From Myroides oncorhynchi (GTDB lineage: Bacteria; Bacteroidota; Bacteroidia; Flavobacteriales; Flavobacteriaceae): a stretch of 64,000 nt of DNA. Position 1 is the first letter of the stretch. The number at the start of each line of letters is the position of its first letter. Where the stretch lies: positions 2,243,501-2,307,500 of the forward strand of contig NZ_JAJJMP010000001.1 of the NCBI RefSeq assembly GCF_020905415.1. Reading direction: 5' to 3'. Of this stretch, positions 20,323 through 48,421 are shown piece by piece. The translations under genes and the position numbers were made by a program. Under the pieces are notes generated by a model that saw nothing but the letters and a program-made list of their open reading frames with translations, searched no databases and had not been told where the DNA came from.

Positions 20323-20484
20323 TTAAACCCAGAATCAGCATTAGCCAAATATTGCAAAGCAATTCTACTTCATATCTCTTTCATTAGTTCTTAAACCATA
20401 CTATAGTATGCTTTACTCACTAATTCAGGGCTATTTTGTATAATTACTTTTCGTTTATATGTCTATTGCTGATTCTGGGTTAAA
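20323..20484. repeat. MITE-like palindromic repeat, copy A
   Basis: The element is about 156-160 bp with terminal inverted repeats. The left end starts AACCCAGAATCAGCA (from 20326); the right end is its complement TGCTGATTCTGGGTT (to 20481). At the centre CATACTATAGTATG (20397-20410) is a perfect palindrome. It is inverted relative to copies B (46193-46336) and C (48260-48421), and its reverse complement aligns with C over the full length with scattered substitutions. There is no coding capacity. It lies in the gap between the ABC-F terminator and the TolC-type operon. Confidence 0.85.
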
Positions 20485-20621
20485 TTAAGTGTTTTGTAGG
20501 TAAGCAAATGGTTTTTTAGACTAAGTGATAAAAAACGACAAAAGATAATACTAGTTTGTGCTAAAAAAGTTTAAATTTATTGATAATTTTAGGTAAAATA
20601 TAATAATTGAAGTATAGTCTT

Positions 20622-20629
20622 TATATTTG
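20622..20629 (+). promoter_or_regulatory. -7 box of the efflux operon
   Basis: TATATTTG fits TAnnTTTG and lies 20 nt before the ATG at 20650. A TTG at 20607-20609 is too close for a standard -33 element, so expression may depend on an activator. Confidence 0.5.
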
Positions 20630-20649
20630 CAAGTATATAAATAGAAGGT

Positions 20650-22044
20650 ATGTTAATGAAGCGATTAGATTTTAAGAATTATCTTTCAGTTATAGGAGGA
20701 GTTTTATTCTGTTTTAGTATGTCTAGTTCAGTGTATGCCCAAGAGAGTATGACATTCACTGAAGCGTATAATAAGATGTATCAAGATAACAGTCTTATTA
20801 AAGCAGTAGAAAAACAAGAAGAAATACATCATTATAAATGGGAAGCAATGAAAGGATTGAGATATCCTTCTATTAAAGCTTTTGGTGGCGGAGTCTATGT
20901 TGGACGTTCGCTAGGTATTGACTTAAATGGATTAAAGAATGGCATCGGTGATTTTATTCACTTGCCTAATCCTGATTTATTAGGAAATTGGTCTATGTCG
21001 TTTAATAAACGAGATATGGCATTTGGAGGATTTATGGCGACATGGCCTTTATATACAGGAGGGAAGATCAATGCAGCGATAAAGGCGCATGAAATCGAGA
21101 GTAAAATAGGAGAGAAAGATCTTGAAAAAACAAAGAACAAACTTATTACTGAATTAGCTCAGCGTTATTATTCTGTGAAGTTAGCAGAAGAAGCAGTTAT
21201 AGTGCGTAAAGCCGTGTTAGAAGGAATGAATAAGCACTTGCATGATGCAACGAAGTTAGAGGAGCATGGTATGATAGCGGCAGTAGAGAAGATGAGTGCA
21301 GATGTAGCAGTATCAGAAGCAAATAGACAGTTAGATGGTGCTCTAAAAGACGCACAGCTAGCTAGGTTAGCTTTGGCTAACACATTAGAAATGGATGTAG
21401 TGACTGCTAATCTGCGCAGTGAGTTTTTTTCTATTCCACAATTAGAAAGTGTAAGTTTCTTTCAAGAGTCAGCAAATGATAATTATCCGGATTTGCAGAA
21501 ATTAGTATTGCAAAAAGAATTAGCTGATCAAGGAGTTAAAGTAAAGCAGTCTGCTAATTACCCAACAGTATTTGGATTTGGTCAAACCATTCTAGCTCAT
21601 AACAATCCTATTTTAGTAGGTGAAAAAGATAATAAACCTTGGGTAGTAGGTGTAGGAGTTACTTATACATTATTTGAAGGATTTAAAAATAAAAACGAAA
21701 TTAGAGCAGCTAAAGCAACTAGAGAAAGTGTTGAATTATTTGAAGCTAAGGCTAAGAGTGATGTGAAGATGTTAGTGGCAAAGTTGTATCAAGATATACA
21801 AAAACAAGAAGATCAGATAAAGAATCTTAATGTACAAGAGAAGTTGGCAGTAGAGTATCTTCGCGTTCGAAACAAGGCTTTCTCAGAAGGTTTTGCTACG
21901 TCTACAGAAGTAGTAGACGCAGAGATGAATCTGTCAGGAGTAAGACTGATGAAGCTACAGGCTAATTATAATTATGCAGTAGGAGTGGCATCGCTCTTTG
22001 AAGTAGCTGGGTTAAGTCATGATTTTTTACAATACACAAACTAA
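20650..22044 (+). CDS. TolC-family outer-membrane efflux protein
   Basis: The 464-residue protein has an N-terminal signal peptide (about 1-30, ending SVYAQ) and two outer-membrane efflux repeats rich in coiled coil. Features include FTEAYNKMYQDNSLIKAVEKQ at the start of the first helix and GVTYTLFEGFKNKNEIRAAKA in the second repeat. It would form the trimeric outer-membrane channel for the adaptor and permeases encoded next. ATG 20656 (MKRLDFK) is an alternative start two codons downstream. First gene of a four-gene operon. Confidence 0.92.
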   Translation: MLMKRLDFKNYLSVIGGVLFCFSMSSSVYAQESMTFTEAYNKMYQDNSLIKAVEKQEEIHHYKWEAMKGLRYPSIKAFGGGVYVGRSLGIDLNGLKNGIGDFIHLPNPDLLGNWSMSFNKRDMAFGGFMATWPLYTGGKINAAIKAHEIESKIGEKDLEKTKNKLITELAQRYYSVKLAEEAVIVRKAVLEGMNKHLHDATKLEEHGMIAAVEKMSADVAVSEANRQLDGALKDAQLARLALANTLEMDVVTANLRSEFFSIPQLESVSFFQESANDNYPDLQKLVLQKELADQGVKVKQSANYPTVFGFGQTILAHNNPILVGEKDNKPWVVGVGVTYTLFEGFKNKNEIRAAKATRESVELFEAKAKSDVKMLVAKLYQDIQKQEDQIKNLNVQEKLAVEYLRVRNKAFSEGFATSTEVVDAEMNLSGVRLMKLQANYNYAVGVASLFEVAGLSHDFLQYTN

Positions 22045-22059
22045 TATAAGCTTTAAGAA

Positions 22060-23046
22060 ATGAAGAATAAAGTTGTAAGTGCAATCGTTGCAATCGTAAT
22101 CGTACTTTTGATTTTAATAATCTCACTATGGTATATGAGTGCTCCTACAGAGACTTATTTACAAGGACAGGTAGATGCTACACAGATTAATGTAGCTTCA
22201 AAAATACCAGGACGAGTAGAGGATATTTTAGTAAAAGAGGGACAACAGGTTAAAGCTGGTGATTTATTATTAAAAATAAGTACTCCTGAAATAGATGCGA
22301 AGTTATTACAAGCAGAGTCTGCTAGAAAGGCAGCTCAAGCAATGGATGACAAAGCGAATAAAGGAGCTAGAGGTGAAGAGATATCTGCTACTTATAATAT
22401 GTGGCAACAAGCTAAGGCTGGAGCTGAATTAGCAGAAAAAACGTATAAGCGCGTCGATAATTTATTTAATGAAAAGGTAGTACCTGCTCAAAAAAGAGAT
22501 GAGGCATATACACAATACAAAGCTTCTCAAGAAGTAGAGAAAGCAGCTTATGCTAAGTATCAAATGGTGCAAAATGGTGCTCGTGTAGAAGATAAAGCAG
22601 CTGCATTAGCGATGGTAGGACAAGCACAAGGAGCAGTAAATGAGGTGTTATCCCTAAAAGGAGAAGGAGATGTTAAAGCTCCCCAAAATGGAGAAGTACT
22701 TAGTATTATGCCTAATAAAGGAGAGATTGTTAACTCTGGTTATCCAGTGGTTAATCTAGTAGACTTGTCAGATGTTTGGGTTTATTTTAATATAAAAGAA
22801 GATCTCATGCCTAAGTTTAAGATGAACGGTAAGTTTATGGCTAGATTTCCTGCTTTAGGTGATGAATTAGTAGAATTGGAAGTAAAATATATTGCCGCTC
22901 AAGGAGATTATGCAACATGGACTGCAACTAAGACTAAAGGTGATTTTGATATGAAAACTTTTCAAATAAAAGCTTACCCTACTAAGAAGGTTGAGGGGCT
23001 TAGACCTGGTATGAGTGCATTAGTATTAGAAAGTAGTTTGAAATAG
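22060..23046 (+). CDS. HlyD-family periplasmic adaptor
   Basis: The 328-residue membrane-fusion protein has an N-terminal membrane anchor (about 5-27) and a lipoyl-like half-motif, VASKIPGRVEDILVKEGQQVKAGDLL (about 45-70). A coiled-coil hairpin follows (about 80-190), then the second lipoyl half, DVKAPQNGEVLSIMPNKGE (about 206-224), and a beta-barrel. It links the inner-membrane permeases to the TolC-type channel and starts 15 nt after that gene. The arrangement matches YbhG/EmrA-like adaptors. Confidence 0.92.
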   Translation: MKNKVVSAIVAIVIVLLILIISLWYMSAPTETYLQGQVDATQINVASKIPGRVEDILVKEGQQVKAGDLLLKISTPEIDAKLLQAESARKAAQAMDDKANKGARGEEISATYNMWQQAKAGAELAEKTYKRVDNLFNEKVVPAQKRDEAYTQYKASQEVEKAAYAKYQMVQNGARVEDKAAALAMVGQAQGAVNEVLSLKGEGDVKAPQNGEVLSIMPNKGEIVNSGYPVVNLVDLSDVWVYFNIKEDLMPKFKMNGKFMARFPALGDELVELEVKYIAAQGDYATWTATKTKGDFDMKTFQIKAYPTKKVEGLRPGMSALVLESSLK

Positions 23047-23054
23047 AGATTTTA

Positions 23055-24239
23055 ATGACGAAAAAAGGTTTTTTATCTATATTTAAAGATGAGTGTGTTC
23101 GGATATTCTCTTCACCTAGACTATTGGTCTTGATGATAGGAGTACCTGTGATGTTATTCTATTTTTACTTTTCCTTATTGAATAAAGGGATTTCGAGAGA
23201 TATGCCAGTTACATTATTGGACTTAGACAAAAGTAAGTTGTCACGTCAGCTAGGACGTATGATAGATGCTACTGCAAGTATGGATATCGCTTACGAAGTG
23301 AGTGATGAATTAGAGGGACAAAAAACTATTCAAAAAGGAGATTCTTTTGCTCTAATTATAATTCCAAAAGATTTTCAGAAGAATATACAGAAGAGTATCT
23401 ATACTAATGTAGTATGTTACTATAATGGACAGTATCTACTGCCTGCTGGTTTAATCCAAAGAGACTTTCAGTTAACTGCTGGTAGTTTTGCTGCAGGAGC
23501 AAAGATAATGAGCCTAGAACAAAGTGGACTGATGGCTGATCAAGCGGTCGCTACAGTAGTACCTACAGGTACTAATAGCCATGTGTTATATAATCCATAT
23601 ACAAGTTATGGTTATTATCTAAACGTTGCTTTTATGCCAATGTCATTTCAGATTATCATTATGGTAATCTCTATTTATGCATTTGGCTCAGTGCTGAAGT
23701 ATAATCGAGGTAAAGAATTATTAGAGCGAAGCAATGACAATATATTCGTAGCTATTATCGCTCGCATATTACCATATACTTTAATATTCTGCCTACTAGG
23801 GTTGTTAATGAATTCACTGTTGTATTATAAGATAGGAGTACCTTTTAGAGGAAATTTCTTTGTGTTGAATTTATTCTTTTGTTCATTCGTGGTTGTGTGT
23901 CAGAGTATGGCTTTCTTTATGGCAACGCTATTGTCAAGTATGCGTACTGCGTTAACTATTGGAGGATCTTATGCTGCATTAGCATTCTCTTTTGCAGGAT
24001 ATACATTTCCACCAGAAGGGATGAGTGCATTCACTCGAGGGCTTAATTATATATTTCCCTTCCATTCGTATATGCGATTTACAGTTGATTATGCGATTAG
24101 AGGAATTCAATATAATAGTATTCAACAGAACTATGTAATAACAATGGCAGTGTTCGTATGTTTAGGAGCATTGTGTATTCCTATTTATTACAAGAAATTG
24201 AAGAAAGGAGGGTATAATGTTGAGAGGGTTGATAAATAA
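23055..24239 (+). CDS. ABC-2 type permease, first of a pair
   Basis: The 394-residue inner-membrane protein of the ABC2_membrane_3/YhgE-like group has one N-terminal helix (about 22-43) and a large periplasmic domain (about 45-190). Five or six C-terminal helices follow, including the block FAGYTFPPEGMSAFTRGLNYIFPF. YbhS/YbhR permeases normally work with an ATPase such as YbhF, which is not encoded in this operon. The last 23 bases overlap the start of the next permease, implying translational coupling. Confidence 0.88.
   Translation: MTKKGFLSIFKDECVRIFSSPRLLVLMIGVPVMLFYFYFSLLNKGISRDMPVTLLDLDKSKLSRQLGRMIDATASMDIAYEVSDELEGQKTIQKGDSFALIIIPKDFQKNIQKSIYTNVVCYYNGQYLLPAGLIQRDFQLTAGSFAAGAKIMSLEQSGLMADQAVATVVPTGTNSHVLYNPYTSYGYYLNVAFMPMSFQIIIMVISIYAFGSVLKYNRGKELLERSNDNIFVAIIARILPYTLIFCLLGLLMNSLLYYKIGVPFRGNFFVLNLFFCSFVVVCQSMAFFMATLLSSMRTALTIGGSYAALAFSFAGYTFPPEGMSAFTRGLNYIFPFHSYMRFTVDYAIRGIQYNSIQQNYVITMAVFVCLGALCIPIYYKKLKKGGYNVERVDK
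24204..24212 (+). promoter_or_regulatory. Unusual strong Shine-Dalgarno sequence of the second permease
   Basis: AAAGGAGGG ends 4 nt before ATG 24217. Good anti-SD matches are rare in Bacteroidota, and almost no other gene in this window has one. It lies inside the end of the first permease gene and fixes the overlapping start. Confidence 0.75.
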
Positions 24240-25404
24240 TTGCGCTTTAATATTAGAAGCCTGTAAGCGTGAATTCAAGCTTATATTTTCAGATTCGGCT
24301 GTAGTAATGTCTTATATGCTATCAGTGATGTTAGTCGGTTTTTTCTATTCTTACGTGTATTCACATGAGACATTTGATGATCTGCCAGTTGCGATTGTAG
24401 ATAATGATCAGGCTAAGCTAGGTCAGCAAGTAGGCAGAATGATAGATGCAACTCATCAGATAAAAGTGGTCTATAGAACTACTGATTTTGATGCCGCAAA
24501 AGAGATATATGACAAAGGTCAAGTAAGAGGGATTATAATGATTCCAAAAGACTTTACTAAGGATATGCAAAAAGGGGAAGTACCTGCTATATCAGTATAT
24601 GCTGATGCTTCTTATATGCTGTATTATAAACAGACTTTAGGTGCTGTAATGGTATCTATGGGAACATTCAATGCTCAAGTAGAGGTCAATAAAGCTATGG
24701 CTAAAAGTACACCTATGGATCAGGCCATAGCTACTAGACGACCATTTAATGTTACTGCAGTACCGTTATATAATATTAATGTAGGATACGCTACGTTCTT
24801 AATGCCTGTTGTATTCATTATAGCTTTACAGACATTACAATTGACTGCTATGGGAATTATGGGAGGAACGTTGCGCGAAGGGGGAAGATTTGCTCAAGTA
24901 TTCGCTTATGCAGAGAAAAGAAGATTTAATAATGTCTTTTTAACTTTTGGAAGAGGATTAGCATATTTAGTCATTTCTATGGTACTATTATTAATAGAGA
25001 TATTAATAGTCATGCACGTATATAACTTACCTCAGAGAGGAAAGATAGTTGAGATAATGGTGTTCTTAATACCAGTTATATTATCTATTACATTTTTGGG
25101 AATGGGATTGGTAAACTTCTTTAAACGCAGAGAAGATGCTATTATGAGCATTACTGTATTTTCTATCCCAGCGTTGATGATAAGTGGTACTTCTTGGCCA
25201 ACTGTTGCTTTTCCGGCTTGGATTAAAGCTGTGTCTGTCTTGGCTCCTAGTACATTAGGGGTGAAGGGATTCGTATCATTAACACAATTCGGAGCTTCAT
25301 TATCTGAAATTAACGACGTATTTATTAAAATGTGGGGGCTTTGTCTTTTTTATTTTATATTTGCAGTCTGGACAAACAGGAGATTTAGAAGAGAAAACAA
25401 ATAA
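24217..25404 (+). CDS. ABC-2 type permease, second of a pair
   Basis: The 395-residue paralogue of the preceding gene has the same layout: an N-terminal helix (about 30-50), a periplasmic domain beginning LPVAIVDNDQAKLGQQVGRM, and C-terminal helices with IPALMISGTSWPTVAFPAW. The two permeases probably form a heterodimer. The start at 24217 is fixed by a strong Shine-Dalgarno sequence and overlaps the upstream gene by 23 nt. A long terminator closes the operon. Without an ATPase gene here, energy must come from an ATPase encoded elsewhere. Confidence 0.88.
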   Translation: MLRGLINNCALILEACKREFKLIFSDSAVVMSYMLSVMLVGFFYSYVYSHETFDDLPVAIVDNDQAKLGQQVGRMIDATHQIKVVYRTTDFDAAKEIYDKGQVRGIIMIPKDFTKDMQKGEVPAISVYADASYMLYYKQTLGAVMVSMGTFNAQVEVNKAMAKSTPMDQAIATRRPFNVTAVPLYNINVGYATFLMPVVFIIALQTLQLTAMGIMGGTLREGGRFAQVFAYAEKRRFNNVFLTFGRGLAYLVISMVLLLIEILIVMHVYNLPQRGKIVEIMVFLIPVILSITFLGMGLVNFFKRREDAIMSITVFSIPALMISGTSWPTVAFPAWIKAVSVLAPSTLGVKGFVSLTQFGASLSEINDVFIKMWGLCLFYFIFAVWTNRRFRRENK

Positions 25405-25432
25405 TTCAATATAGCTTTATTATTAGAGCAAT

Positions 25433-25467
25433 AAAAAAGCAGAAGTATCATTACTTCTGCTTTTTTT
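25433..25467. terminator. Bidirectional terminator after the efflux operon
   Basis: GCAGAAGTA (25439-25447) pairs with TACTTCTGC (25452-25460), flanked by six A and seven T residues. It ends both the plus-strand efflux operon and the minus-strand gene at 25485. Confidence 0.95.
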
Positions 25468-25484
25468 ATTTTCAATATCCAAAT

Positions 25485-26180
25485 TTAGTGATTCAAATTT
25501 GGATATTGTTCTTTTAATTTGTCTTTAAAACGTATTCCCATTATTCTGTTTTTACCTAAGATATCTTTGACACCTGTTGTATAATCTGCTACTGGAGTAC
25601 CTGATGTGTCTTTTGTTATTCTATCAAAGAATATTATATCAAAGGATGTACCTTCATTTTCTATTACTATCTTTTTACTTACTTTATTTCCTGCAGTAGC
25701 AAAGACTCTTGTAGCTTGATCTGTAGTATTTAAATCTGTTACTTTTGCTTTTGCCAATTTTTCTTTAGTTAAAGAAAAAGTATCAGTTAATTCTCCTTCT
25801 TCAAATAAAAGATAATGTAGATGTTCTTTGGTCAAAACTAGATAAGCAGCATTATCTACTTGTTGATATTTTGCTTTAACTCCTACAGCTCCCCAACCGA
25901 TAACCTTTAACCCTGTTAATAAAGTGTTTTTGGTTTTTTCAGCCAAGTTACTGATGTAAGCGCACTCAGTGAAAGCTATGATAGGCTCTTCAGGATGAAC
26001 CTCAGTAAGTTGTTCATAAAGTTGTGATAGTAGCTCCTTTTGAAACTCTTCACTTTTAGCAATCATAGTTGGAGATTCGTATTTCTTAGTAGTTTCTTTT
26101 TGTTTTTTCATTTGAAAAAACATAAAAGCAAAAGAACCTCCAAAGACAACAACAATAGCAGCAATTATTAATGGATCCAT
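25485..26180 (-). CDS. Conserved hypothetical membrane-anchored protein
   Basis: The 231-residue protein has one N-terminal membrane helix (about 4-23, IIAAIVVVFGGSFAFMFF), then KKQKETTKK, suggesting an N-out, C-in topology. The rest is soluble and mixed alpha/beta. The stretch AYLVLTKEHLHYLLFEEGEL (about 107-126) resembles the strands of a PH-like domain, but this is a weak impression. I do not recognise the family. It is followed by a strong terminator and preceded by a DUF6929-like gene on the same strand, 75 nt away. Confidence 0.65.
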   Translation of the reverse strand: MDPLIIAAIVVVFGGSFAFMFFQMKKQKETTKKYESPTMIAKSEEFQKELLSQLYEQLTEVHPEEPIIAFTECAYISNLAEKTKNTLLTGLKVIGWGAVGVKAKYQQVDNAAYLVLTKEHLHYLLFEEGELTDTFSLTKEKLAKAKVTDLNTTDQATRVFATAGNKVSKKIVIENEGTSFDIIFFDRITKDTSGTPVADYTTGVKDILGKNRIMGIRFKDKLKEQYPNLNH

Positions 26181-26255
26181 AGTTAATTTTTTAGTATTTT
26201 ATTAATTATTAATAAGTTAAAATTAGCTAAAATATATTTAATACTATTGTCTTTT

Positions 26256-27095
26256 TTAGTTTTTTATTGATAATTTGTATATCCCTGATTTATTCTCATC
26301 ATTGTCGGGATCTTCACATAATAAGAATTCTAAGTTGTTTCCTTCTTGACTATAGAGTGTGATTCCTTCGAATTTATGTGTGTTACTAATGGTTAGTGTT
26401 TTCTCTAGTTTTAGTTTAGCAGTGTTTATTCTTCCTAATATAGTTCCTTTTATTTCCCCATCAGCATAAGTTGATTTACCATCTTCAGCAGCGGCAAGGA
26501 AGTATATTTTATCTTCTACTTTTATGGCGTCAGTAAAGCTTGTTTGTACTTTATTAAGCTTTGGTAGTTTGATAGGAGTATAGGTGATTTGGAAGTCATT
26601 TAATATGTTGTTTCCCTTTACAACGAATATTCCATTAGCTCCTTTAGGCCCATTACCTCTATTAAAAAAATACCATAAGTCGTTATCATAAATCACTCCT
26701 TCAATATTAAAGTCCTCATCACTTAGATTAGCAAAACTTTTCATAGAATCATAAAGAATATCAAGTTCATTCTCTGATAACACTTCATTAGTCAATCTAT
26801 TTACTTCTACTAATTTTATACGGTTGGGCTTAGACCCTGAGCCAAAAATATAATAGTTGATACCATCTGTAGTAATAGATTCATAGTCAGGTTTAGCAGT
26901 TTTGTGAATATTCTCTTCACTTAAGTTATCACTAACTAAAGTAGTTTTGTATAAATGTTGTTGCTCTATGTTATAGTGATAAAAGTAAGTAGAATTGTCC
27001 GAGATAATATGTACTTGATTATCGTCATATACTAGCCCTGAGGCAGCCCCAATACCTAATAGTTGAAAAAGTAGTTCTAAAGCAATTTGTTTCAT
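26256..27095 (-). CDS. DUF6929-like protein, probable beta-propeller
   Basis: The 279-residue protein has repeated short beta-strand segments such as QVHIISDNSTYFYHYNI, NYYIFGSGSKPN, FNIEGVIYDNDLWYFFNRG, KVEDKIYFLAAAED and KFEGITLYSQ, consistent with a propeller. The first 20 residues are hydrophobic (MKQIALELLFQLLGIGAASG) but lack a clear signal cleavage site. The assignment to the DUF6929 group is by resemblance only. No function is known. Confidence 0.6.
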   Translation of the reverse strand: MKQIALELLFQLLGIGAASGLVYDDNQVHIISDNSTYFYHYNIEQQHLYKTTLVSDNLSEENIHKTAKPDYESITTDGINYYIFGSGSKPNRIKLVEVNRLTNEVLSENELDILYDSMKSFANLSDEDFNIEGVIYDNDLWYFFNRGNGPKGANGIFVVKGNNILNDFQITYTPIKLPKLNKVQTSFTDAIKVEDKIYFLAAAEDGKSTYADGEIKGTILGRINTAKLKLEKTLTISNTHKFEGITLYSQEGNNLEFLLCEDPDNDENKSGIYKLSIKN

Positions 27096-27151
27096 GAGAT
27101 AAATGTTTGTTTTAAAATAAAGTAGTAATTTAAGCTTTTAATTGTGATGAA

Positions 27152-28030
27152 ATGAATTTAGAAGAAAAATATAGAATAAGCAATAGTAAAGTGAAGTTAG
27201 AAGAACTATCTACAGTTCCTGATTTAAACTTTTCGATGACTAAAGCTTTTCGAAAAGTAGACAAGTTAAGTCGCAACTTGGGCAAGTTTCAAGATGTTAT
27301 GTATGCCCATAATCGCTATAGTGTACTGATTTGTATTCAAGGAATGGATACTGCAGGGAAAGATAGTTTAATACGTGAAGTATTCAAATCATTTAATGCT
27401 AGAGGAGTTGTTGTACAGAGTTTTAAGAAACCAACTTCGTATGAATTAGAGCACGATTATCTATGGAGACATTATGTCAATCTGCCTGAGAGAGGAAAGT
27501 TTACTGTTTTTAACCGTAGTCACTACGAGAATGTATTAATCTCACGAGTGCATTCGCAAGTGGTAATGAATGAGATGATACCTGGTATAGAGAAACCGAC
27601 TGATCTAACAGAAGAGTTTTGGGATAAACGCTATGAGGAAATCAATAATTTCGAACAGCATATTGCTAACAATGGAGTTATCGTACTGAAGTTCTTTTTA
27701 CACTTGAGTAAAAAAGAACAGAAGAAGAGAATATTGCGTAGACTTGAAAAGGAAAAGCACAATTGGAAGTTCGAACCAAGTGATATCAAAGAAAGAGAGT
27801 ATTGGGATGATTATCAGAAGTATTATGAAGAAGCTATTAATAGAACGTCTACTGATCAGTGTCCTTGGTATGTGATACCAGCAGATGATAAGGCATACTG
27901 TAGATTTACTTTTGCTAAGATATTAGAAGAAGTATTCAGTAAATATGATGATATCAAGTTACCCAGACTAGCTCCTGAGATTCAGAAAGATTTAGATTTG
28001 TATATCGAGACATTAAAGAATGAAGAGTAA
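27152..28030 (+). CDS. ppk2: Polyphosphate kinase 2 family phosphotransferase
   Basis: PPK2 enzymes use polyphosphate to phosphorylate nucleotides. The 292-residue protein has Walker A GMDTAGKDS (about 64-72), the lid region SYELEHDYLWRHYVNLPERG and Walker B-like FNRSHYENVL (about 127-136). The single-domain length and the LWRH-PERG pattern fit the class III group, which can act on AMP and ADP. Substrate preference cannot be set from sequence alone. It is a single gene ending in a strong terminator. Confidence 0.93.
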   Translation: MNLEEKYRISNSKVKLEELSTVPDLNFSMTKAFRKVDKLSRNLGKFQDVMYAHNRYSVLICIQGMDTAGKDSLIREVFKSFNARGVVVQSFKKPTSYELEHDYLWRHYVNLPERGKFTVFNRSHYENVLISRVHSQVVMNEMIPGIEKPTDLTEEFWDKRYEEINNFEQHIANNGVIVLKFFLHLSKKEQKKRILRRLEKEKHNWKFEPSDIKEREYWDDYQKYYEEAINRTSTDQCPWYVIPADDKAYCRFTFAKILEEVFSKYDDIKLPRLAPEIQKDLDLYIETLKNEE

Positions 28031-28036
28031 ATTTAT

Positions 28037-28072
28037 AATAAAGCCAATTCTAGTAGTAGAATTGGCTTTATT
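28037..28072. terminator. Bidirectional terminator after ppk2
   Basis: A perfect 16-bp stem pairs 28037-28052 with 28057-28072 around a 4-nt loop. It lies between the convergent ppk2 and outer-membrane protein genes. Confidence 0.92.
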
Positions 28073-28085
28073 ATTCAGTTATATG

Positions 28086-28610
28086 CTATTTCTTTTTGCT
28101 GTTCTTTTTTAAAGAGAATCCGTAGGCTAGACGGACAGCAAGTTGATCTGTATTATAATCATTAAAGTTTTCGTAGCGAAGACTTATATCTACATAGCGA
28201 TTAGCATACCCTATAGCTGGTGACCATATAAAAGTATTTCCCATACCCTTATGTGTACCTATACCAGCTCCTAGTTCTCCCATCGCATAGATATTCTTGT
28301 TTAAGAATTGTTTAAAACCTGCTTTAACAGGTATTAAACCTAAGTCTCCATTATCACTATCAAATAGATGAGTATAACCAGAGGTAAGTGTAAATGATGT
28401 TTTTTGGCTTACATCATATTGTATTCTTGCGTCAATACCTACGGCGACATTATATTCAGAGTCTAATGGCAGACCACCATTTAATCCGAAACCAACTCTA
28501 AATCCTTTAGGGTAATAGGGTTTGTCTTTTTTTTGTGCTGTTACAGGTAATGCCGCTAATGTAGCAATAGCAAGAGAAGCTAAGGCTATTTTCTTAGTGA
28601 GCTTGAACAT
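28086..28610 (-). CDS. Outer-membrane beta-barrel protein, function unknown
   Basis: From ATG 28610 the product is 174 residues with a signal peptide (MFKLTKKIALASLAIATLA, cleavage near VTAQ) and alternating amphipathic strands: FRVGFGLNGG, TSFTLTSGYTHLF, NIYAMGELGAG, VDISLRYENF and QLAVRLAYGFSLKK. This is the pattern of a small eight-stranded barrel. An upstream GTG at 28649 would place 13 polar residues before the signal peptide and is rejected. The role is unknown. Confidence 0.8.
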   Translation of the reverse strand: MFKLTKKIALASLAIATLAALPVTAQKKDKPYYPKGFRVGFGLNGGLPLDSEYNVAVGIDARIQYDVSQKTSFTLTSGYTHLFDSDNGDLGLIPVKAGFKQFLNKNIYAMGELGAGIGTHKGMGNTFIWSPAIGYANRYVDISLRYENFNDYNTDQLAVRLAYGFSLKKNSKKK

Positions 28611-28733: not shown

Positions 28734-28749
28734 CACAAAAATTAAGTAA

Positions 28750-38865: not shown

Positions 38866-38881
38866 ATGTTTGAATCAAACA

Positions 38882-40375: not shown

Positions 40376-40376
40376 A

Positions 40377-40970
40377 TTAGTAGGTATTAGTGGTTAACTC
40401 AAAGGCTGTGATAGCCTCTTTTTTAGCAATTAAATAGTCGATATCATCATATCCATTAAGCAAACAAATCTTTTTATATGGGTCTAATTCGAAGTGTTCT
40501 TCTCTATTATTTATTACTATAGATTGGTGTTCTACATCTACAGTTATCTGTGTTTTAGGGTTATTCTCTATTTCATTAAATAGGTAAGCGAGGTATTCTT
40601 TGCTGACCATAACAGGCAATACGCCATTATTTAGTGCATTGCTTTTAAAGATATCAGCGAAGAAACTACTTACGATAACTTTAAAGCCATAATCAGACAA
40701 CGCCCACGCAGCGTGTTCTCTACTACTTCCACAACCAAAGTTATTTCCAGCGATTAATATTTCACCTGAGTACTTAGGGTTGTTAAGTGGGAAATCTAGT
40801 TTAGGACTACCGTCATTATTAGATCGCCAATCTCTAAACAGATTATCTCCGAAGCCCTCTCTGTTAATACTCTTTAAGAATCTAGCAGGGATAATCTGAT
40901 CTGTATCTATATTCTCTATTGCTAGAGGAGTTGCTGTTGATGTTATCTTAGTTAACGCTTGCATATTCAT
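40377..40970 (-). CDS. leuD: 3-isopropylmalate dehydratase small subunit
   Basis: LeuD forms the swivelling domain of isopropylmalate isomerase with LeuC. The 197-residue chain has [14 protein letters not shown] near the N-terminus and the [14 protein letters not shown] block (about 77-90) that closes on the substrate. Its start overlaps the 3' end of leuC by 23 nt, implying coupled translation. Confidence 0.96.
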
Positions 40971-42351
40971 TCATTTTAGAGTAAGTAATTTTGCCTTCTA
41001 TCGCTACTATCGCAGCTGTTAGAGGGCTTGCTAATAATGTACGAGATCCTTGTCCTTGTCTACCTTCGAAGTTTCTGTTCGAAGTAGATACACAAAATTC
41101 TCCTGATGGGATCTTATCCTCATTCATCGCAAGACAAGCAGAGCATCCGGGCTGTCTAATCACAAATCCCGCTTCTTGGAATACAGCATCTAAGCCTTCT
41201 TCTTTTATTTGAGCCACCACTTGTTGTGAACCTGGAACTATTAAGGCATTGATGTCTTGAGATATTCTCTTTCCTTTAATATATGATGCTGCCACTCTAA
41301 AATCTTCTATTCTAGCATTGGTACAACTACCTATAAAAACGTGTTTTACAGGTATGGTATCTATAGCCTGACCTGGTAATAATCCCATATAACTAAGTGC
41401 CTTTTCTTCTGACTCGGTTTTGTTTAGAGGAATAAATGTATCAATGTTTATCCCCATACTAGGATTAGTTCCATAGGTGATCATTGGTTTTATATCTTCA
41501 GCTTTAAAGTGATATTCACAGTCGAACTTCGCTTTTTTATCTGTAGGTAAGGTCTGCCAATATGCTACTTTTTTATCCCATTGTTCTCCTGTAGGAGCGA
41601 AGGGCTTTCCTTTTACATAGTCAAATGTAGTTTGGTCAGGAGCAATCATTCCTCCACGTGCCCCCATCTCTATACTCATATTGCAGACAGTCATTCTGCC
41701 TTCCATAGTCATCTGTTCAAATACATTACCTGCATATTCACAGAAATATCCTGTACCTGCATCCGTTCCTACTTTAGAAATGATATACAGGATAACATCT
41801 TTTGGTTGAACATGACTATTTAGTTTGCCTTCAACAGTGATGCGCATTGTCTTAGGCTTATTCATTAAGGTACACTGACTAGCGAATACTTGGGCTACTT
41901 GACTTGTTCCAATTCCAAAAGCAATTGTACCAAAGGCACCATGTGTGGATGTATGGCTATCTCCACAGACCATACTCATCCCCGGTTGAGTAATACCTAA
42001 CTCTGGTGCTATAATGTGTACTATCCCCTGATATTCATGTCCTAGGTCATAATAGGTAATAGTATTTTCCTTACAGTTTATTGCTAATTGATCTACTTGT
42101 TGTTTTGATAGCGGATCTTTTATAGGTTGTTCTTGATTTAGAGTTGGTACATTGTGATCTACAGTAGCTACTATTTGTTTTGGTCTAAAAACAGAGATAC
42201 CTCTTTTCTTAAGTTCGTCAAATGCCTGTGGACTTGTTACCTCATGAATTAGATGTTTGTCTATATATAATATATCTGGGCCATTCTCTATACTCTCTAC
42301 TACGTGAGCGTCCCATACTTTGTCAAATAATGTTTTTGGTTTATTAGTCAT
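40948..42351 (-). CDS. leuC: 3-isopropylmalate dehydratase large subunit
   Basis: LeuC carries the [4Fe-4S] cluster of isopropylmalate isomerase. The 467-residue protein shows [14 protein letters not shown], the cluster cysteine in [10 protein letters not shown] and the pair in [11 protein letters not shown]. The family start [12 protein letters not shown] is canonical. It lies 11 nt downstream of leuA and overlaps leuD. Confidence 0.96.
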
Positions 42352-42362
42352 TAGTTGTTGGT

Positions 42363-43538
42363 TTAAGCGTGTTTAATCATTTGGTTTTGAGTGTACATAG
42401 TCATAATAGCATGTAAGTCTACCTCAGTTACTTCTTTCTTAGTATCAGCTACTCCTAAGAAGTATTCATATAGTGTGTCTAATTCTATTTTAGTCACATC
42501 AAATCCAATGTTTTTAAATCTATAAGCTAATGCAGATCTACCACTTCGCGCTGTAAGAATGATAGATGAGGCATCCACACCTACCTCTTTAGGATCGATA
42601 ATCTCATAGGTATCACGGCGTTTAATCACTCCATCCTGATGTATACCCGAACTGTGAGCAAATGCATTAGCCCCTACAATAGCTTTATTTGGCTGCACGA
42701 CCATTCCCATTGTGTTAGAGGTCAATTGACTTAATGTGTTTAACATAGTGCTATTGACATCTGTATGGAAACCTAAATTCTTATGTTGTTTTAAGATCAT
42801 TACCACCTCTTCTAGTGCTGTATTACCCGCTCGCTCGCCGATACCATTGATCGTACACTCTATTTGTCTAGCTCCATTCATAATACCTGCTATAGAATTG
42901 GCTGTTGCCATTCCTAAATCATTGTGACAGTGACATGATAAGATTACATTCTCTATTCCCTTGACGTGTTCTTTTAGATATTTAATTTTGTTACCATAGT
43001 CAGTAGGTAAGCAGTACCCTGTTGTATCAGGGATATTGATAACAGTAGCCCCTGCTTGTATTACTGCTTCACAAACCTTAGCTAGATAAGGATTATCTGT
43101 CCTTCCTGCATCCTCCGCATAGAATTCTATATCCTGGACATATTTTTTTGCATAGGCTACAGCTTCACTGGCTCTACCTATTATTTCCTCTTGTGTAGAG
43201 TTAAACTTGTATTTAATATGCGAATCAGAAGTACCTATACCTGTATGTATTCTAGGCTTATGAGCGTATTCTAATGCTTTTACAGCTGAATCGATATCTT
43301 TAGTATTGGCACGTGTTAGGGCACATATCTTAGCATTCTTTACTATTTTACTGATGGCTTGTACAGCTTCAAAGTCACCTGGACTAGAAATAGGAAAGCC
43401 TGCCTCGATAACATCGACTCCTAACTCATCGAGTTGGTAAGCAATCTCTAGTTTTTGTTTTTTATCTAACTTACAACCAGGTACTTGTTCTCCGTCTCTT
43501 AATGTGGTGTCAAAAATCTCAATTTTTTCAGTTTTCAT
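42363..43538 (-). CDS. leuA: 2-isopropylmalate synthase, short form without regulatory domain
   Basis: LeuA condenses acetyl-CoA with 2-oxoisovalerate, the first step of leucine synthesis. The 391-residue protein keeps the whole TIM-barrel catalytic domain, with [12 protein letters not shown] (about 10-21) and the metal-binding SCHCHNDLG (about 201-209), plus part of the linker domain. It lacks the roughly 120-residue C-terminal domain that binds leucine in the 510-520-residue enzymes. The operon context supports isopropylmalate over homocitrate synthase. First gene of the leu operon; no leader peptide with leucine codons is visible upstream. Confidence 0.93.
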
Positions 43539-43684
43539 ATTTTTAGTGTTTTAAATAACTTTAAACAAAAGTGTATAAAAGCTTTTCACTATCTTTAAAA
43601 AAAAGTTAAAAACTACAATGTTAAAATGTGGTTTTTGTAATATAAGTTGTTGTTTTATAATTATTTAAAGTATTTTTTGTTACA

Positions 43685-45178
43685 ATGTCAAATTGGGGGA
43701 AAGACTGGTTATTTGTATTGATAAAATCACTGACAAGGTCAGAGAAACGTCAATTCACATTATATGTAAACAGATTGCAGAACAATGCGGATGCTAAATT
43801 CATCTCGTTATTTAATGCTATGGATAAAATGGAGGAGTATGACGAGCAGTATATTCTCAAACAAAAAATCACAAGCAAACAGCAATTATCTAATTTAAAA
43901 GCAAATCTATACAAGGCTATCTTAGTGAGTCTGCGTATGAATCCTAGTAGAAAAAATGTCAGAATACAAATACGTGAACAACTTGATTTCGCTACTATTC
44001 TATATCAAAAAGGACTACATAAACAGGGATTAAAAATATTAGATAAGGCAAAACAAATCGCATTAGACGTAGAAGAGAAGAGCCTTGCTTTAGAAATTAT
44101 AGAGTTAGAGAAAGTTATCGAATCTCAGTATATCACACGTAGTATCACTGGTCGTGCGGATGAACTGATTGCCCAATCTAATGAGCTTATCATTCAGAAT
44201 TATTATGCAACGAAGTTATCTAACTTATCGCTAAAGTATTATAATGAGATGCTTACTTCTGGATATGCAAAGAGTGAGGATGAAAAACAAGAACTAATCG
44301 CCAGGTTTAGTGATCAATTATTAGATATTAATATTGAGTTGCTAAATTTTAGAGAGAAGCTGTGGTACTTTAAAGCGCATGTATGGTTGTGTTTCTTGAT
44401 ACAAGATTATCGCAATGCTTATAAATATGCTAAGTTATGGGTAGCGTTATTTTACGACCACCCAAAGATGATATTAAGTCACCCAATATGGTACCTTAAG
44501 GGAAATTCGTATCTATTTAAAATACTGCTACTATTTAAGTCGGTAGACAAATATATTTATTGGAACAATAGACTAGAAGAACAATTGACAAGCGAGAACT
44601 TCCCACAATCAGAGAATATTAATTCACAGGCATTCTTATTGCAGTTTAGCAACAAACTGAATATCGAATTTATACAGCAGACATATAGTGGAAGTACAAT
44701 CTTTGTAAAACAACTGCAACGAGGGATCAATGAATATAGTAATATGATAGATGAGCACCACTTTCATATTCTATATTTTAAAGTAGCTTCATTGTACTTT
44801 GGGTATAAGAAATATGAAGATTCCTTAGCCTATACAGCACGTATTTTAGCGAATACTGACTATACGGTACAGGAAGATTTGCTGTTTCACACCCGTATTT
44901 TATCGTTAATGGCACAATTCGAATCAGGACAAGATCAACACTATGAAGACTTTATCAAAGCGAATAGAAACTTGATGAAAAAGATGAAAAACAAGACTGA
45001 GATACACGACACTTTTATGAAGTTATTTGAGGGACTTTTAGGATCGTCATCTAAAGAGCAAGTTGTTGTCTTAAAGGAGTTTGTCGAAAAGATGGAACTG
45101 CTGTATGACAATAAGTTTTATATCCGTAGTATTCTGTATATCGATGTGCTAAATTGGGCTAAAAGGAAACTAAGTTAA
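43685..45178 (+). CDS. Conserved flavobacterial helical-repeat protein of unknown function
   Basis: The 497-residue protein is almost entirely alpha-helical, with no signal peptide or membrane segment. The N-terminus WLFVLIKSLTRSEKRQFTLY is followed by repeated helix pairs that resemble TPR units in spacing, for example LHKQGLKILDKAKQIALDVE and YRNAYKYAKLWVALFY. A protein-interaction scaffold is plausible. It is divergent from leuA across 146 nt and ends at a hairpin terminator. No close characterised relative is recognised. Confidence 0.7.
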   Translation: MSNWGKDWLFVLIKSLTRSEKRQFTLYVNRLQNNADAKFISLFNAMDKMEEYDEQYILKQKITSKQQLSNLKANLYKAILVSLRMNPSRKNVRIQIREQLDFATILYQKGLHKQGLKILDKAKQIALDVEEKSLALEIIELEKVIESQYITRSITGRADELIAQSNELIIQNYYATKLSNLSLKYYNEMLTSGYAKSEDEKQELIARFSDQLLDINIELLNFREKLWYFKAHVWLCFLIQDYRNAYKYAKLWVALFYDHPKMILSHPIWYLKGNSYLFKILLLFKSVDKYIYWNNRLEEQLTSENFPQSENINSQAFLLQFSNKLNIEFIQQTYSGSTIFVKQLQRGINEYSNMIDEHHFHILYFKVASLYFGYKKYEDSLAYTARILANTDYTVQEDLLFHTRILSLMAQFESGQDQHYEDFIKANRNLMKKMKNKTEIHDTFMKLFEGLLGSSSKEQVVVLKEFVEKMELLYDNKFYIRSILYIDVLNWAKRKLS

Positions 45179-45206
45179 TAAGGTAATATCACATTAAGTA
45201 AAATAG

Positions 45207-45245
45207 AAAGCCACGCATACTGTGAAGTTGTTGTGGCTTTGTTTG
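45207..45245 (+). terminator. Terminator after the helical-repeat gene
   Basis: AAAGCCAC (45207-45214) pairs with GTGGCTTT (45233-45240), followed by a T-rich tract. Confidence 0.7.
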
Positions 45246-45322
45246 TTAAAAAAGGCTTGCTTGTATCAAAAGAATTACTATCTTCGCCTCTGTATTAGAG
45301 TAATAATACAGTATTAATTCCA

Positions 45323-45495
45323 GAGAATAGGTTATACTTAGTTGTATATGAAAAGGGAATCGTGTGAGAATCACGAACTGTCGCGCAACTGTAAGTAACA
45401 TGCTAGTTTTTATCCTAGTGATCCACTGTTATGATTTAAGATAATGGGAAGGACGATAAAAGCTGTTACAAGTCAGGAGACCTGCCTTATTCTGT
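45323..45495 (+). promoter_or_regulatory. Cobalamin riboswitch
   Basis: The consensus blocks occur in order. A P1 strand AGAATAGG lies near 45324-45331. GGGAATCGTGTGAGAATCAC (45355-45374) and ACTGTCGCGCAACTGTA (45377-45393) follow, then CCACTG (45423-45428) and GGGAAGG (45446-45452). The B12 box CAAGTCAGGAGACCTGCC is at 45469-45486, and P1 closes with CCTTATTCT. Such aptamers bind adenosyl- or methylcobalamin and switch genes off. The next gene, 200 nt downstream, is a hotdog thioesterase rather than a B12 transport or synthesis gene. A 14-codon frame (45506-45550) follows the aptamer, possibly by chance. Confidence 0.93.
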
Positions 45496-45691
45496 TTTAT
45501 AGACTATGCTTTCGCGGTTTAGAGCTTCATGTCAAGTTGGAATGTGTTAATTCATTCATCCTATAAGTTGTATCTAGGATAAGCACATTGTATCTTTTCA
45601 TTTTAATCCAAACCATTTTATCGAATAGCACACAGATAAGTTATTATCAGGTCTATATTATTGTTACAATACTGTAGGACTAACAAGCATA

Positions 45692-46093
45692 ATGATGTTA
45701 TTAGAAGCAGATATAGAAGAGCGCAAATTAAAAGCTGTGACCAGTGTGTTTAAAGTAGTATTTCCAGATACTACTAATCACCATAACACGATGTTCGGAG
45801 GTCGAGTAATCATGATGATGACTGAGACTGCTTTTATGACTGCAACACGTTTCTGCCGTAAGAGCTTTGTGATCGTTAGCAGTGATAAAATAGATTTTAG
45901 ACAACCCATACCAGCAGGCTCATTAGTTGAGATGGTAGGAGAGGTAGAGTCTATCGGTAATACGAGTATTCGTATCCGCGTTAATGTGTATAGAGAGAAG
46001 ATGAAGGAAGAGGAACGCATAAAGGTAGTGACAGGTGTATTCACCCTCGTCGCATTAGATGATAATTTCAAACCGATATCTATATTAGATTAG
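45692..46093 (+). CDS. Hotdog-fold acyl-CoA thioesterase
   Basis: The 133-residue single-hotdog protein resembles the YciA/ACOT group. NHHNTMFGGRVIMMMTETAF (about 29-48) is the helix and active-site region, and VSSDKIDFRQPIPAGSLVEM (about 62-81) is the substrate-facing segment. Such enzymes hydrolyse acyl-CoA to free CoA and acid as hexamers. It is the first gene after a cobalamin riboswitch, which suggests B12-dependent expression unless transcription restarts in the 200-nt gap. It ends at a strong terminator. Confidence 0.88.
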   Translation: MMLLEADIEERKLKAVTSVFKVVFPDTTNHHNTMFGGRVIMMMTETAFMTATRFCRKSFVIVSSDKIDFRQPIPAGSLVEMVGEVESIGNTSIRIRVNVYREKMKEEERIKVVTGVFTLVALDDNFKPISILD

Positions 46094-46143
46094 GTTTTAT
46101 ACAAGTAAATTTTGTAAGCATCTTACATTTTTTAGTTTTTGGT

Positions 46144-46181
46144 AGGGGGATAGACAGGTTAGTGTCTATCCCCATTTTTTT
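46144..46181 (+). terminator. Terminator after the thioesterase gene
   Basis: GGGGATAGACA (46146-46156) pairs with TGTCTATCCCC (46163-46173), followed by a T run. Confidence 0.93.
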
Positions 46182-46192
46182 ACGCCTGTTTT

Positions 46193-46336
46193 AACCTAGA
46201 ACATGCAATAGAAAAAATAGCAAAAAGTAATTATACAAAATAGGTCTGAATTAGCTCTACAATCATACTATAGTATGATTGTAGAGCTAATGATAGAATT
46301 GCTTTGTAGTATTTGGCTAATGTTGATTCTGGATTT
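46193..46336. repeat. MITE-like palindromic repeat, copy B
   Basis: This copy is about 143 bp with diverged terminal repeats: left AACCTAGAACATGCAATAG, right end complementary to AAATCCAGAATCAACATTAG. Its centre is a perfect 42-bp palindrome (46250-46291, dyad between 46270 and 46271), the longest in the three copies. It has the same orientation as copy C and lacks about 12 bp compared with it. It sits 80 bp from the left end of the insertion sequence. Confidence 0.82.
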
Positions 46337-46438
46337 AATCAAGTCTTTGAGGTCTAAACATTGGCCTCATTATAGAGATCTAACTCAATGATTTAATCTT
46401 TTATAAGAGGTATAATGGATCAATCTCAAAAGTTGTGT

Positions 46439-47431
46439 TTATGCATAAAGCTTAGTCAATCTGTATAAAAAGAAATCAATATCTCTTACACCTCTAAACT
46501 GAGCTCTGAATGCTTTAATTTTGGCATTAAAAGATTCAGCAGAGGCATTAGTACTTCTATTATCAAAATAGTTAAGAATTGTTTTATAATTGATTTGCAT
46601 TGTATTGATAACAGTGCCGAATTGTTTTAAATTAATCTTCATAACATCATTGTACCAATGAGCCAGTTTAGTATAAGCTACTTCTTTTACTGTGGTTGTG
46701 TTATATATTATTCTTAAGTGTTGCGCTACATTATAAGCTTGTTTAATCAAAGGATATTGATTAAATAATATATCTGCTCTTTGTATTTGATTAGTGGTCC
46801 ATTTACTTGGATCCATAGTTAGTAGATATCTACTCCTTATAAGTAGTTGCTTAGCTGTATCTCCATTATCAAACTCTATTGGAATAAATTGTTTACCTTC
46901 TTTTTTAGCTTGTAGGATTAAGTTGTTTTCAATATCTGAAGCATTCCAACGTTCTTGTATTCTAATATCTTGTAATGCTTCATTTACTAGTTTCTGTACA
47001 TGAAAACGATCTGTTACTTGTGTGGCATTAACAAAGCACTTCGTAACAATTTTTTTCATAGAATTTGCCATATCAAGTGTTATCTCCTTAACTTTAGATC
47101 TTGTCTTAGAGGAGATTGTAAGGAGCTTTTCTATAATAGGCTCTACTTTAGTGCCAGAAAAAATGGCTACTATACTCCCTTTCTTTCCTCTACTATACTT
47201 GTTTGTAATAATTGTATAGAGCTCACCTTTTGACAAAGCTGTTTCGTCTATTGATAGTTTAGGTCCTATGTTTTCAGGAAAAAGAAGATAGTCTTTAGCG
47301 TGTTCTTTATGTTCCCAAGCTTGAAAATCACTTAGTGAATCTTTGTATTGGCGTTGTAGTTTTTTACCATCAATATTAAAGAAACCTCCTATTGTATGAC
47401 AATCACTTGCCTTAGTATCTATTAATTTCTT
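46439..47431 (-). CDS. ISAon1-type transposase, catalytic part (second frame)
   Basis: The open frame runs from 47431 to the stop at 46439, about 330 codons. A start only at the internal TTG (47236) would lose conserved sequence such as KASDCHTIGGFF and FPENIGPKLSIDETALSKG. The DDE residues appear as Asp in LSIDETALS, Asp in TLDMANSM and Glu in ASAESFNAKIKAFRAQFRG, the ISL3-type C-terminal signature. The frame overlaps the end of the first ORF by about 20 nt in the +1 register, so it is probably made by frameshifting at the run TTTTTTAAAAG or by re-initiation. Confidence 0.88.
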   Translation of the reverse strand, partial: KKLIDTKASDCHTIGGFFNIDGKKLQRQYKDSLSDFQAWEHKEHAKDYLLFPENIGPKLSIDETALSKGELYTIITNKYSRGKKGSIVAIFSGTKVEPIIEKLLTISSKTRSKVKEITLDMANSMKKIVTKCFVNATQVTDRFHVQKLVNEALQDIRIQERWNASDIENNLILQAKKEGKQFIPIEFDNGDTAKQLLIRSRYLLTMDPSKWTTNQIQRADILFNQYPLIKQAYNVAQHLRIIYNTTTVKEVAYTKLAHWYNDVMKINLKQFGTVINTMQINYKTILNYFDNRSTNASAESFNAKIKAFRAQFRGVRDIDFFLYRLTKLYA

Positions 47432-47765
47432 TTAAAAAAGAGGCAAACTCATCAGTTAAACGAGTGCCTTTTGCTACTAGATTCCAATCTCTCTGTACTA
47501 ATTCGCGAGTAGTTTTATCTAACCAACGACGTCGCTTGACATGAAGATAAACACTATTTCCTCGTAATGGAAAGTCTTGTATTGTGGTTTCATTATGAAA
47601 CCCATGACCTATAAGAATACGGTCTTTCGCTTCATCTGGGACTCTATTAAATTCTTCAAAATATAGGTGCATTGTTTCACCTTGTTTTATCGTTTTTACT
47701 AAATCAAAATGTTCTACTAAAAACTCAGGTAAAATCATTTTTATAAACTCAATATAGTTTTCCAC
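47412..47765 (-). CDS. ISAon1-type transposase, N-terminal region (first frame)
   Basis: The 117-residue product contains PLRGNSVYLHVKRRRWLDKTTR-like sequence with a basic region that probably binds the terminal repeats. A separate N-terminal ORF of this size is normal for ISAon1-type elements. It ends FLKEINRY, just past a run of six T and four A, where the reading frame of the catalytic part begins one base shifted. Confidence 0.85.
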   Translation of the reverse strand: MENYIEFIKMILPEFLVEHFDLVKTIKQGETMHLYFEEFNRVPDEAKDRILIGHGFHNETTIQDFPLRGNSVYLHVKRRRWLDKTTRELVQRDWNLVAKGTRLTDEFASFLKEINRY

Positions 47766-47838
47766 GTTTATTATTTATCATTACAAAGATCTGTAGTTTT
47801 TAATTCACACACAACTTTTGAGATTGATCCGGTATAAT

Positions 47839-48259
47839 CTTAAAAACACTAAATTCTTTTTTACTTTTTGATTAAAATATAAAATGTATCTCCGTTTAGT
47901 GTCATACTGATAATTTATAGGTTAAAGGAACTGATCATGTAAACAAGTAACTAGTTAATATACAGTAATTGTAAAAATTGGTATTATCTAGTTTAATGGG
48001 ATAATTACAACATTATACCCTCTTATTACATCAAACGGACATACATAAAATATAATCCTTTATAAAGTTTTTTTTAAGTTTTACTTCTTTTTTTTAGATA
48101 TGAAGCTCTTTAAAGACCTATAATGAGCTCGTTTCTGAAAAAAAGATGTCATTTTTTATGAGTGCTTTTATTTTAATGTATTGATTTGTATTGTTTTATT
48201 TGTTTTTTGTAAACAATGAATAGTTTATTGATATACTCTTGAAGCCTTATAAATACTAG
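47839..48259. other. AT-rich gap between the IS and repeat copy C
   Basis: About 420 bp with no supported gene, RNA or hairpin. It is very AT-rich, with T runs near 48069 and 48090. Nothing can be assigned. Confidence 0.6.
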
Positions 48260-48421
48260 TTTATCCCAGAATCAGCAATAGACAGATAAACGAAAAGCAA
48301 TTATACAAGATAGGTCTGAATTAGTGATTTCAGCATACTATAGTATGGTTATAGAGCTAATAAAAGAACTATAAAGTAGAATTACTTTGTAGTATTTGGC
48401 TAATGCTGATTCTGGGTTTAT
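48260..48421. repeat. MITE-like palindromic repeat, copy C
   Basis: The copy is about 156-162 bp. The left end reads ATCCCAGAATCAGCAATAG (from 48263) and the right end GCTGATTCTGGGTTTA (to 48420). The central CATACTATAGTATG lies at 48334-48347. Most of the left half can pair with the right half, so a transcript or single strand would fold into one long imperfect hairpin. It aligns with copy B directly and with copy A in reverse. The 220 bp between it and the next gene hold nothing recognised. Confidence 0.85.

Follow-up and report, generated by a model that had tools for sequence, protein, structure and literature searches.

A large family of palindromic miniature elements in Myroides oncorhynchi, probably mobilised by an IS1380-type transposase

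What are the imperfectly palindromic repeats that recur in the genome of Myroides oncorhynchi, and which enzyme moves them? The question arises from a window of 64,000 nucleotides of this flavobacterium (contig NZ_JAJJMP010000001.1, positions 2,243,501 to 2,307,500, forward strand), in which an earlier reading of the letters alone, here called the original prediction, described three such repeats as an old, multi-copy family resembling miniature inverted-repeat transposable elements (MITEs), with a mobilising enzyme that was elsewhere or lost. Here we document the copy number of the family, the match of its ends to those of insertion sequences (ISs) of the IS1380 family, its direct 5-bp duplications, and filled and empty sites between Myroides genomes. 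The repeats are a MITE family, very probably mobilised in trans by an IS1380-type transposase, because their ends and their 5-bp duplications match those of intact IS1380 elements in the same genome.

The three repeats lie where they had been placed, as elements of 152, 139 and 152 bp, each flanked by direct repeats of 5 bp (copies 1 to 3, Table 1). With the duplications included, the predicted limits of copies 1 and 3 (20323-20484 and 48260-48421) are kept, but copy 2 spans 46190-46338 rather than 46193-46336. The core that had been proposed for the terminal inverted repeats, AACCCAGAATCAGCA, takes in two bases (AA) that belong to the target duplication, and the element begins at CCC. As had also been proposed, each copy is predicted to fold into one long hairpin, and none of the 200 dinucleotide shuffles made per element folds as well as copies 1 to 3. 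In copy 2 the left inner arm exactly complements the right one, which makes the central 42 bases a perfect palindrome; in this, by sequence and alignment, copy 2 differs from most family copies. No transposase is encoded inside the elements, and 152 bp leaves no room for one.

Table 1. Positions of the repeats, their target duplications, empty sites and other features, counted from the first nucleotide of the window.
Feature	Position	Strand	Details and basis
TTAAA target duplication, left side of copy 1	20323..20327	+	sequence
Copy 1, 152 bp	20328..20479	-	ATTCCGC-subfamily core, both ends AATCAGC; covariance model R1 191.2 bits; hairpin z -7.9; with duplications TTAAA-CCCAGAATCAGCA...GGG-TTAAA
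TTAAA target duplication, right side of copy 1	20480..20484	+	sequence
TTTAA target duplication, left side of copy 2	46190..46194	+	sequence
Copy 2, 139 bp	46195..46333	+	13-bp internal deletion relative to consensus (alignment); R1 119.9 bits; hairpin z -6.2; with duplications TTTAA-CCTAGAACATGCA...GGA-TTTAA
Perfect 42-bp palindrome, centre of copy 2	46250..46291	.	sequence
TTTAA target duplication, right side of copy 2	46334..46338	+	sequence
TTTAT target duplication, left side of copy 3	48260..48264	+	sequence
Copy 3, 152 bp	48265..48416	+	both ends AATCAGC; R1 192.7 bits; hairpin z -5.7; with duplications TTTAT-CCCAGAATCAGCA...GGG-TTTAT
TTTAT target duplication, right side of copy 3	48417..48421	+	sequence
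Copy 0, older diverged sister copy	13690..13842	+	ends TCTTAAATCTG/CCTTAAATCTA (CCTTAAATC-type); TTAGC on each side, one additional A at left; R1 86.2 bits, sequence
Empty site, single TAATA	~20182..20190	+	filled in N17-2 by a copy of a sister subfamily with TAATA on both sides; comparison with N17-2
Empty site, flanks 5 bases apart	~28030..28035	+	N17-2 has an old CCTTAAATC-type copy, duplication not clean; comparison with N17-2
ISL3/ISAon1-type IS	46417-47830		ends GGATCAATCTCAAAAG, 8-bp repeats GGTATAAT
Cobalamin riboswitch	45312-45503	+	above Rfam gathering score
Fluoride riboswitch	9373-9440	-	above Rfam gathering score
L19 leader	521-548	-	above Rfam gathering score

The many further copies that the original prediction expected are present. 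Exact copies of the palindrome CATACTATAGTATG number 30 in the genome of 4,156,454 bases and all lie inside family members, and a covariance model trained on 26 of these 30 copies (R1) gives 149 matches in the genome, which reduce to at least 114 distinct places after removal of antisense duplicates by hand. The figure is a lower bound because only 150 of 4759 candidates in the genome were scored; the weakest of the scored rows (43.7 and 52.3 bits) are marginal. The repeats are, as first proposed, an old and multi-copy family of short elements without a transposase gene, and 54 of the copies are exactly 152 bp long. The central palindrome had been called conserved, which holds for the subset of 30 exact copies but not for the family across its 114 places. 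Of the 54 copies that measure 152 bp, 21 are perfectly palindromic over at least the central 14 bp, and the conservation of the central 14 columns (0.894) is mildly above that of other stretches (0.81-0.90).

With the element ends placed from the inverted repeat alone, the 5-bp flanks are identical at 53 of the 114 copies and agree in at least four of five bases at 84. Reshuffling the right flanks in 1000 trials yielded 16.9 identical pairs on average and never more than 27. The identical pairs are TTAAA and TTTAA (20 each), TTTAT (6), ATAAT and TTAAT (2 each), and TTGAA, ATAAA and TAATA (1 each). Flanks that match in inverted orientation occur at 5 copies only of the 114. A left TTTAA is followed by a right TTTAA, not TTAAA, and the repeats are therefore direct duplications rather than the outer part of the inverted repeat.

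A search for a full-length IS with matching ends, which the original prediction had called for, found two intact IS1380-family elements of 1400 bp each in the chromosome. Their ends are like those of the repeats and their duplication is the same, so the mobilising enzyme no longer has to be placed elsewhere or counted as lost. Both elements, and not the 152-bp repeats, encode a DDE transposase, as an autonomous IS1380 element does: the matches to NF033539 lie at genome positions 2875630-2876853 and 2318499-2319722 (257 and 253 bits, cut-off 180), the frame from ATG has 438 amino acids in both, and the Pfam domain DDE_Tnp_1_4 is present in both. The two elements differ at one end (CCCAGATTACGCATTAG versus CCCGGATTACGCATTAG) and share the sequence of the other (CCCACATTCCGCATTAG), and TTTAA stands on both sides of both elements, a duplication of the same 5 bp as in the family. 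Over 17 bases, the family's right ends differ from an IS end by no, one, two or three mismatches in 2, 9, 5 and 14 of the 114 copies, so that 30 lie within three, and 8 of the left ends do so as well (2 at two mismatches, 6 at three). By comparison, not one of 203,108 background positions (the window plus two 20-kb regions, with the elements masked) lies within three mismatches of an IS end, and 4 positions lie at four.

Several observations weigh against this assignment. The left ends are farther from the IS ends than the right ends, the commonest distance being 5, and 61 of the 114 copies have no exact duplication. No resident IS1380 end corresponds exactly to AATCAGC or AATAAGT, the two commonest end types, and CCAGAATCAGCA, which occurs 14 times exactly in the genome, is never found at an IS1380 end. 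The interior consensus has no similarity to IS1380, so that descent from the IS by deletion lacks support; the suggestion that the repeats might turn out to be the ends of a known IS thus applies to their ends, which are of IS1380 type, but not to their interior. Finally, the family is present in one genome of the same genus bin (G020) where no IS1380 match reaches E <= 1e-30, and IS1380 is present in M. pelagicus, where the family model has no match.

The end types and the G020 genome also speak for an alternative in which the MITE family was amplified by a different, lost or unseen IS with AATCAGC or AATAAGT ends, and the resident IS1380 shares end motifs by ancestry and moves few copies or none. 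A sister group of six copies with CCTTAAATC-type ends on both sides points the same way, as no IS with such ends was found here. We nevertheless regard this alternative as unlikely. The ATTACGC and ATTCCGC ends do match the resident IS1380, with the two exact right ends and the nine at one mismatch, the family and the resident IS1380 make the same 5-bp duplications, and a partly deleted IS in Myroides sp. N17-2 has an end, CCCAGAATCCGC, that is intermediate between the end types.

Mobilisation by an IS1380-type transposase is in addition suggested by the genus bin, because a second, unrelated family there shares these ends and duplications. Few genomes of the bin carry IS1380 (3 of 150 at E <= 1e-30, our own included), and matches to the family model at E <= 0.01 occur in 4 of 60 other genomes. 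G020 is a clear carrier, with 27 matches (both strands counted) and a best score of 173 bits, and the weak matches in G016 (7), G036 (1) and G046 (1) come from different elements that share these ends. To judge from their sequence, these small elements, a 173-bp element of G016 and its relatives in G046 and G036, are a second IS1380-type MITE family, separate from the first, with the same CCCAGATTACGCATTAG ends as IS1380 and a different interior. They measure 173 and 172 bp where both ends could be placed, and 116 bp in G036. Nine loci were read by script (L083, L087, L089, L091, L093, L095 and L097 in G016, L085 in G046 and L084 in G036), of which four (L089, L093, L095 and L085) have exact 5-bp duplications; at two others the left end was wrongly placed by the script.

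Relatives of the IS with the same kind of ends were found in M. pelagicus (99%), M. marinus (99%) and N17-2 (96%), where the exact 5-bp flanks are TTAAT, TTTAT and TTTAA, respectively. A relative in a Tannerella metagenome-assembled genome (MAG; 75%) is flanked by TTAAA and TTTAA, four of five bases being alike, and one in a Bacteroidales MAG (76%) has both ends, its contig ending 2 bases past one of them. Among these five genomes reached via the IS, the family model has at least 150 matches in N17-2, 37 in M. marinus, and none in M. pelagicus or in either MAG. One 152-bp family member of M. marinus adjoins the IS directly (L186:2267-3823), and the two have one TTTAT in common. N17-2 has a 530-bp internally deleted IS1380 (L188:2424-2953), which keeps both IS ends and both tips of the transposase gene between TTTAA repeats. 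Family members stand head to tail or overlap at positions 156245-156520 and 1710168-1710447 of our own genome, and junctions of these kinds may be favoured targets. A broken IS1380-type transposase in three pieces lies at 2112062-2113282 of the same genome; its ends were not found.

Filled and empty sites, a comparison that had been proposed at the outset, were sought where the flanks align. Across the window the DNA is 81-95% identical to that of N17-2 and M. marinus, which points to a Myroides host. Comparisons among N17-2, M. marinus and our own genome found empty sites, two of them in the window (Table 1), with the target bases conserved in one case (TAATA) and diverged in others. Our copy at genome position 528872, flanked by TTGAA left and right, has no counterpart in M. 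marinus, where the flanks align straight through and the target bases have diverged; it is the one good site in two 20-kb regions of our genome (six copies) that were picked for clean empty sites. For a copy in M. marinus (L220), the corresponding flanks in our genome lie 13 bases apart. Other copies are common to relatives, namely copy 0 with N17-2 and the copy at genome position 697877 with M. marinus. Because some copies are shared and others are filled or empty between relatives, the family predates the splits from these relatives and moved after them too. At the sites of the three window copies the comparison is less clean. Copy 1 is missing in N17-2, but the alignment there is not clean, and the same intergenic region in M. 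marinus has a copy with a different duplication. The left flank of copy 2 aligns in N17-2, M. marinus and G020, and over 40 bases only in M. pelagicus, and its right flank aligns in none of the four. For copy 3 no flank match was found near the site in the relatives.

The two ends of an element tend to change together. Both could be typed in 53 of the 114 copies, the other 61 having an untyped or tied end. They match in copies of the types AATCAGC (12), ATTCCGC (6), CCTTAAATC (6) and ATTACGC (3), and they differ in the combinations AATAAGT/AATCAGC (18), AATATGT/AATCAGC (3) and ATTACGC/AATCAGC (2) and in three single mixtures. In the 26-copy alignment, double changes, in which both members of a pair differ, fall mostly in the ends, where two pairs show them in 6 and 9 copies; three more pairs show such a change at one copy each, one of them interior (columns 53 and 115). 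Over the terminal 14 bases of the 54 copies of 152 bp, the left arm complements its own right arm at 0.720, compared with 0.627 for the right arm of another copy, and the excess is smaller outside these bases. Within core clusters (33 copies), the excess persists at the terminal 14 bases (reached by 0 of 2000 shuffles) and is weak at positions 46-69 (9 of 2000), and none is seen at positions 15-45 or at the centre. The clearest single case is copy 1, whose core lies inside a 12-copy ATTCCGC cluster (nearest copy 0.028 away) and whose ends are both AATCAGC; one further member of this cluster has AATCAGC as its left end and an untyped right end.

Quasipalindrome-type template switching is a route by which changes are copied across a hairpin. 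Because the repeat is imperfectly palindromic over its whole length, a change in either end could be copied to the other, and an element might in this way swap both ends and shift between transposase specificities. We put this forward tentatively, as a possibility and not as the probable course of events. It is favoured by the co-variation of the ends within core subfamilies, by the combination of core and ends in copy 1, by the other ends of the sister group, which match each other, and by the inner arm of copy 2, which exactly complements its partner. Alternatively, similar end patterns could result from gene conversion of the core, or from selection for a usable matched pair.

The surroundings of the copies are also distinctive. 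A terminator-like hairpin, counted when it has a T-rich tail, lies no more than ~60 bp away and is directed towards the element, stands beside 40 of the 114 copies and 121 of 1048 control sites, a threefold difference in frequency (odds ratio 4.1, Fisher p 9e-10). The controls are the TTAAA, TTTAA, TTTAT and ATAAA sites between genes in the same stretches of DNA. The count includes two neighbouring pairs of copies (1860677 and 1862950; 1710168 and 1710298) with duplicated or shared hairpins, and the Fisher value overstates independence because paired copies share hairpins and many controls lie in the same intergenic regions. The excess may stem from target choice or from what selection left. 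Neighbouring genes are tandem at 50 copies, convergent at 25, divergent at 19 and unclassified at 20, and no clear difference appears, on a comparison of counts without a Fisher test, from a gap control at seven loci (49, 22 and 23). Among the classified copies, none lies inside a reading frame of at least 100 amino acids.

The terminator excess, together with the strong predicted folds of copies 1 to 3, would suit a family kept as a structured RNA or a regulatory hairpin, such as a terminator extension, with its transposon-like features as relics. This explanation is very improbable, given that the presence of the element varies between relatives and that pairing beyond shuffles is concentrated in the terminal 14 bases. 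Moreover, the check for a known RNA family places the repeats in none: a scan of the whole window with Rfam 15 gave no match to them at gathering score, and five copy loci gave three sub-threshold matches at E <= 1. A repeat spread by another route, for example by a Y1 (RAYT) transposase, is scarcely credible, as REP and ERIC families do resemble an imperfect intergenic palindrome but the Myroides repeats have 5-bp target duplications on both sides and ends that match a DDE-type IS; no search aimed at a RAYT gene was made.

Two further ISs were considered as donors and rejected. IS982 has weak partial matches in the genome, the best at 22.8 bits (cut-off 130), and two of its four loci were scanned (L041 and L044) and show no matching end pair. 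The ISL3/ISAon1-type IS between copies 2 and 3 differs in its ends and in its 8-bp repeats (Table 1), in agreement with the earlier remark that the ends of the repeats are unlike those of the nearby IS. The ends of this IS recur at many contig edges of N17-2, which indicates that it is multi-copy there. A 301-bp stretch with copy 3 had no match among records of plasmids and phages, nor did a single exact 24-base pattern among viral contigs.

ISEcp1 has the left inverted repeat CCTAGATTCTACGT (PMC7864471), makes 5-bp duplications and prefers AT-rich targets (PMC2887853), and IS1247 makes a 5-bp repeat (PMC3281130). The Myroides family is like these IS1380 members in the kind of end, a likeness judged by eye for ISEcp1, and in its AT-rich 5-bp duplication, and unlike them it has no transposase gene. 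BrickBuilt and other MITEs of Porphyromonas gingivalis, also of the Bacteroidota, are described as having ends like those of resident ISs, long predicted stem-loops, and filled and empty sites, and 10 of 19 BrickBuilt copies lie near terminators or polyadenylation-type sites (PMC4596501). BrickBuilt, however, has IS5-family ends, 23-nt repeats and 19 copies, in contrast to the IS1380-type ends, the 152-bp palindrome and the at least 114 places of the Myroides family. MITEPye1 of Paracoccus yeei and the TIMEs of Pseudomonas are likewise non-autonomous and were assigned by the likeness of their ends and by direct repeats, to IS1182 and Tn3, respectively; unlike the Myroides family, they have few copies per genome (PMC11578231, PMC4133298). 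In the open-access literature, with subscription papers and ISfinder outside this scope, we found no earlier description of the family or of any MITE family tied to IS1380, and the word IS1380 is absent from a 2024 review of prokaryotic MITEs (PMC10969869). The repeats form a new, large Myroides family of a kind of element already known, with a likely mobiliser identified.

In the mechanism that we propose, an IS1380-family DDE transposase, produced by a full-length IS, would recognise the ends CCCAGATTACGC, CCCAGATTCCGC and CCCAGAATCAGC and their variants, and would insert the element into AT-rich 5-bp targets, mostly TTTAA, TTAAA and TTTAT, with duplication of the target. The enzyme would be supplied in trans by the resident IS1380 or a close relative. 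Matching changes at the two ends may be kept by selection for a usable pair or copied across the hairpin, and terminator regions may be places where copies preferentially land or survive.

The IS1380 family includes ISEcp1, by which drug-resistance genes are carried from plasmid to plasmid (PMC2887853). Three aspects are worth following up: the pairing with IS1380, the linked switching of ends and the association with terminators. With at least 114 copies and a candidate enzyme in the same genome, this palindromic element would offer a system for studying the target choice of the transposase, and the same system bears on why copies adjoin terminators and how paired ends change together.

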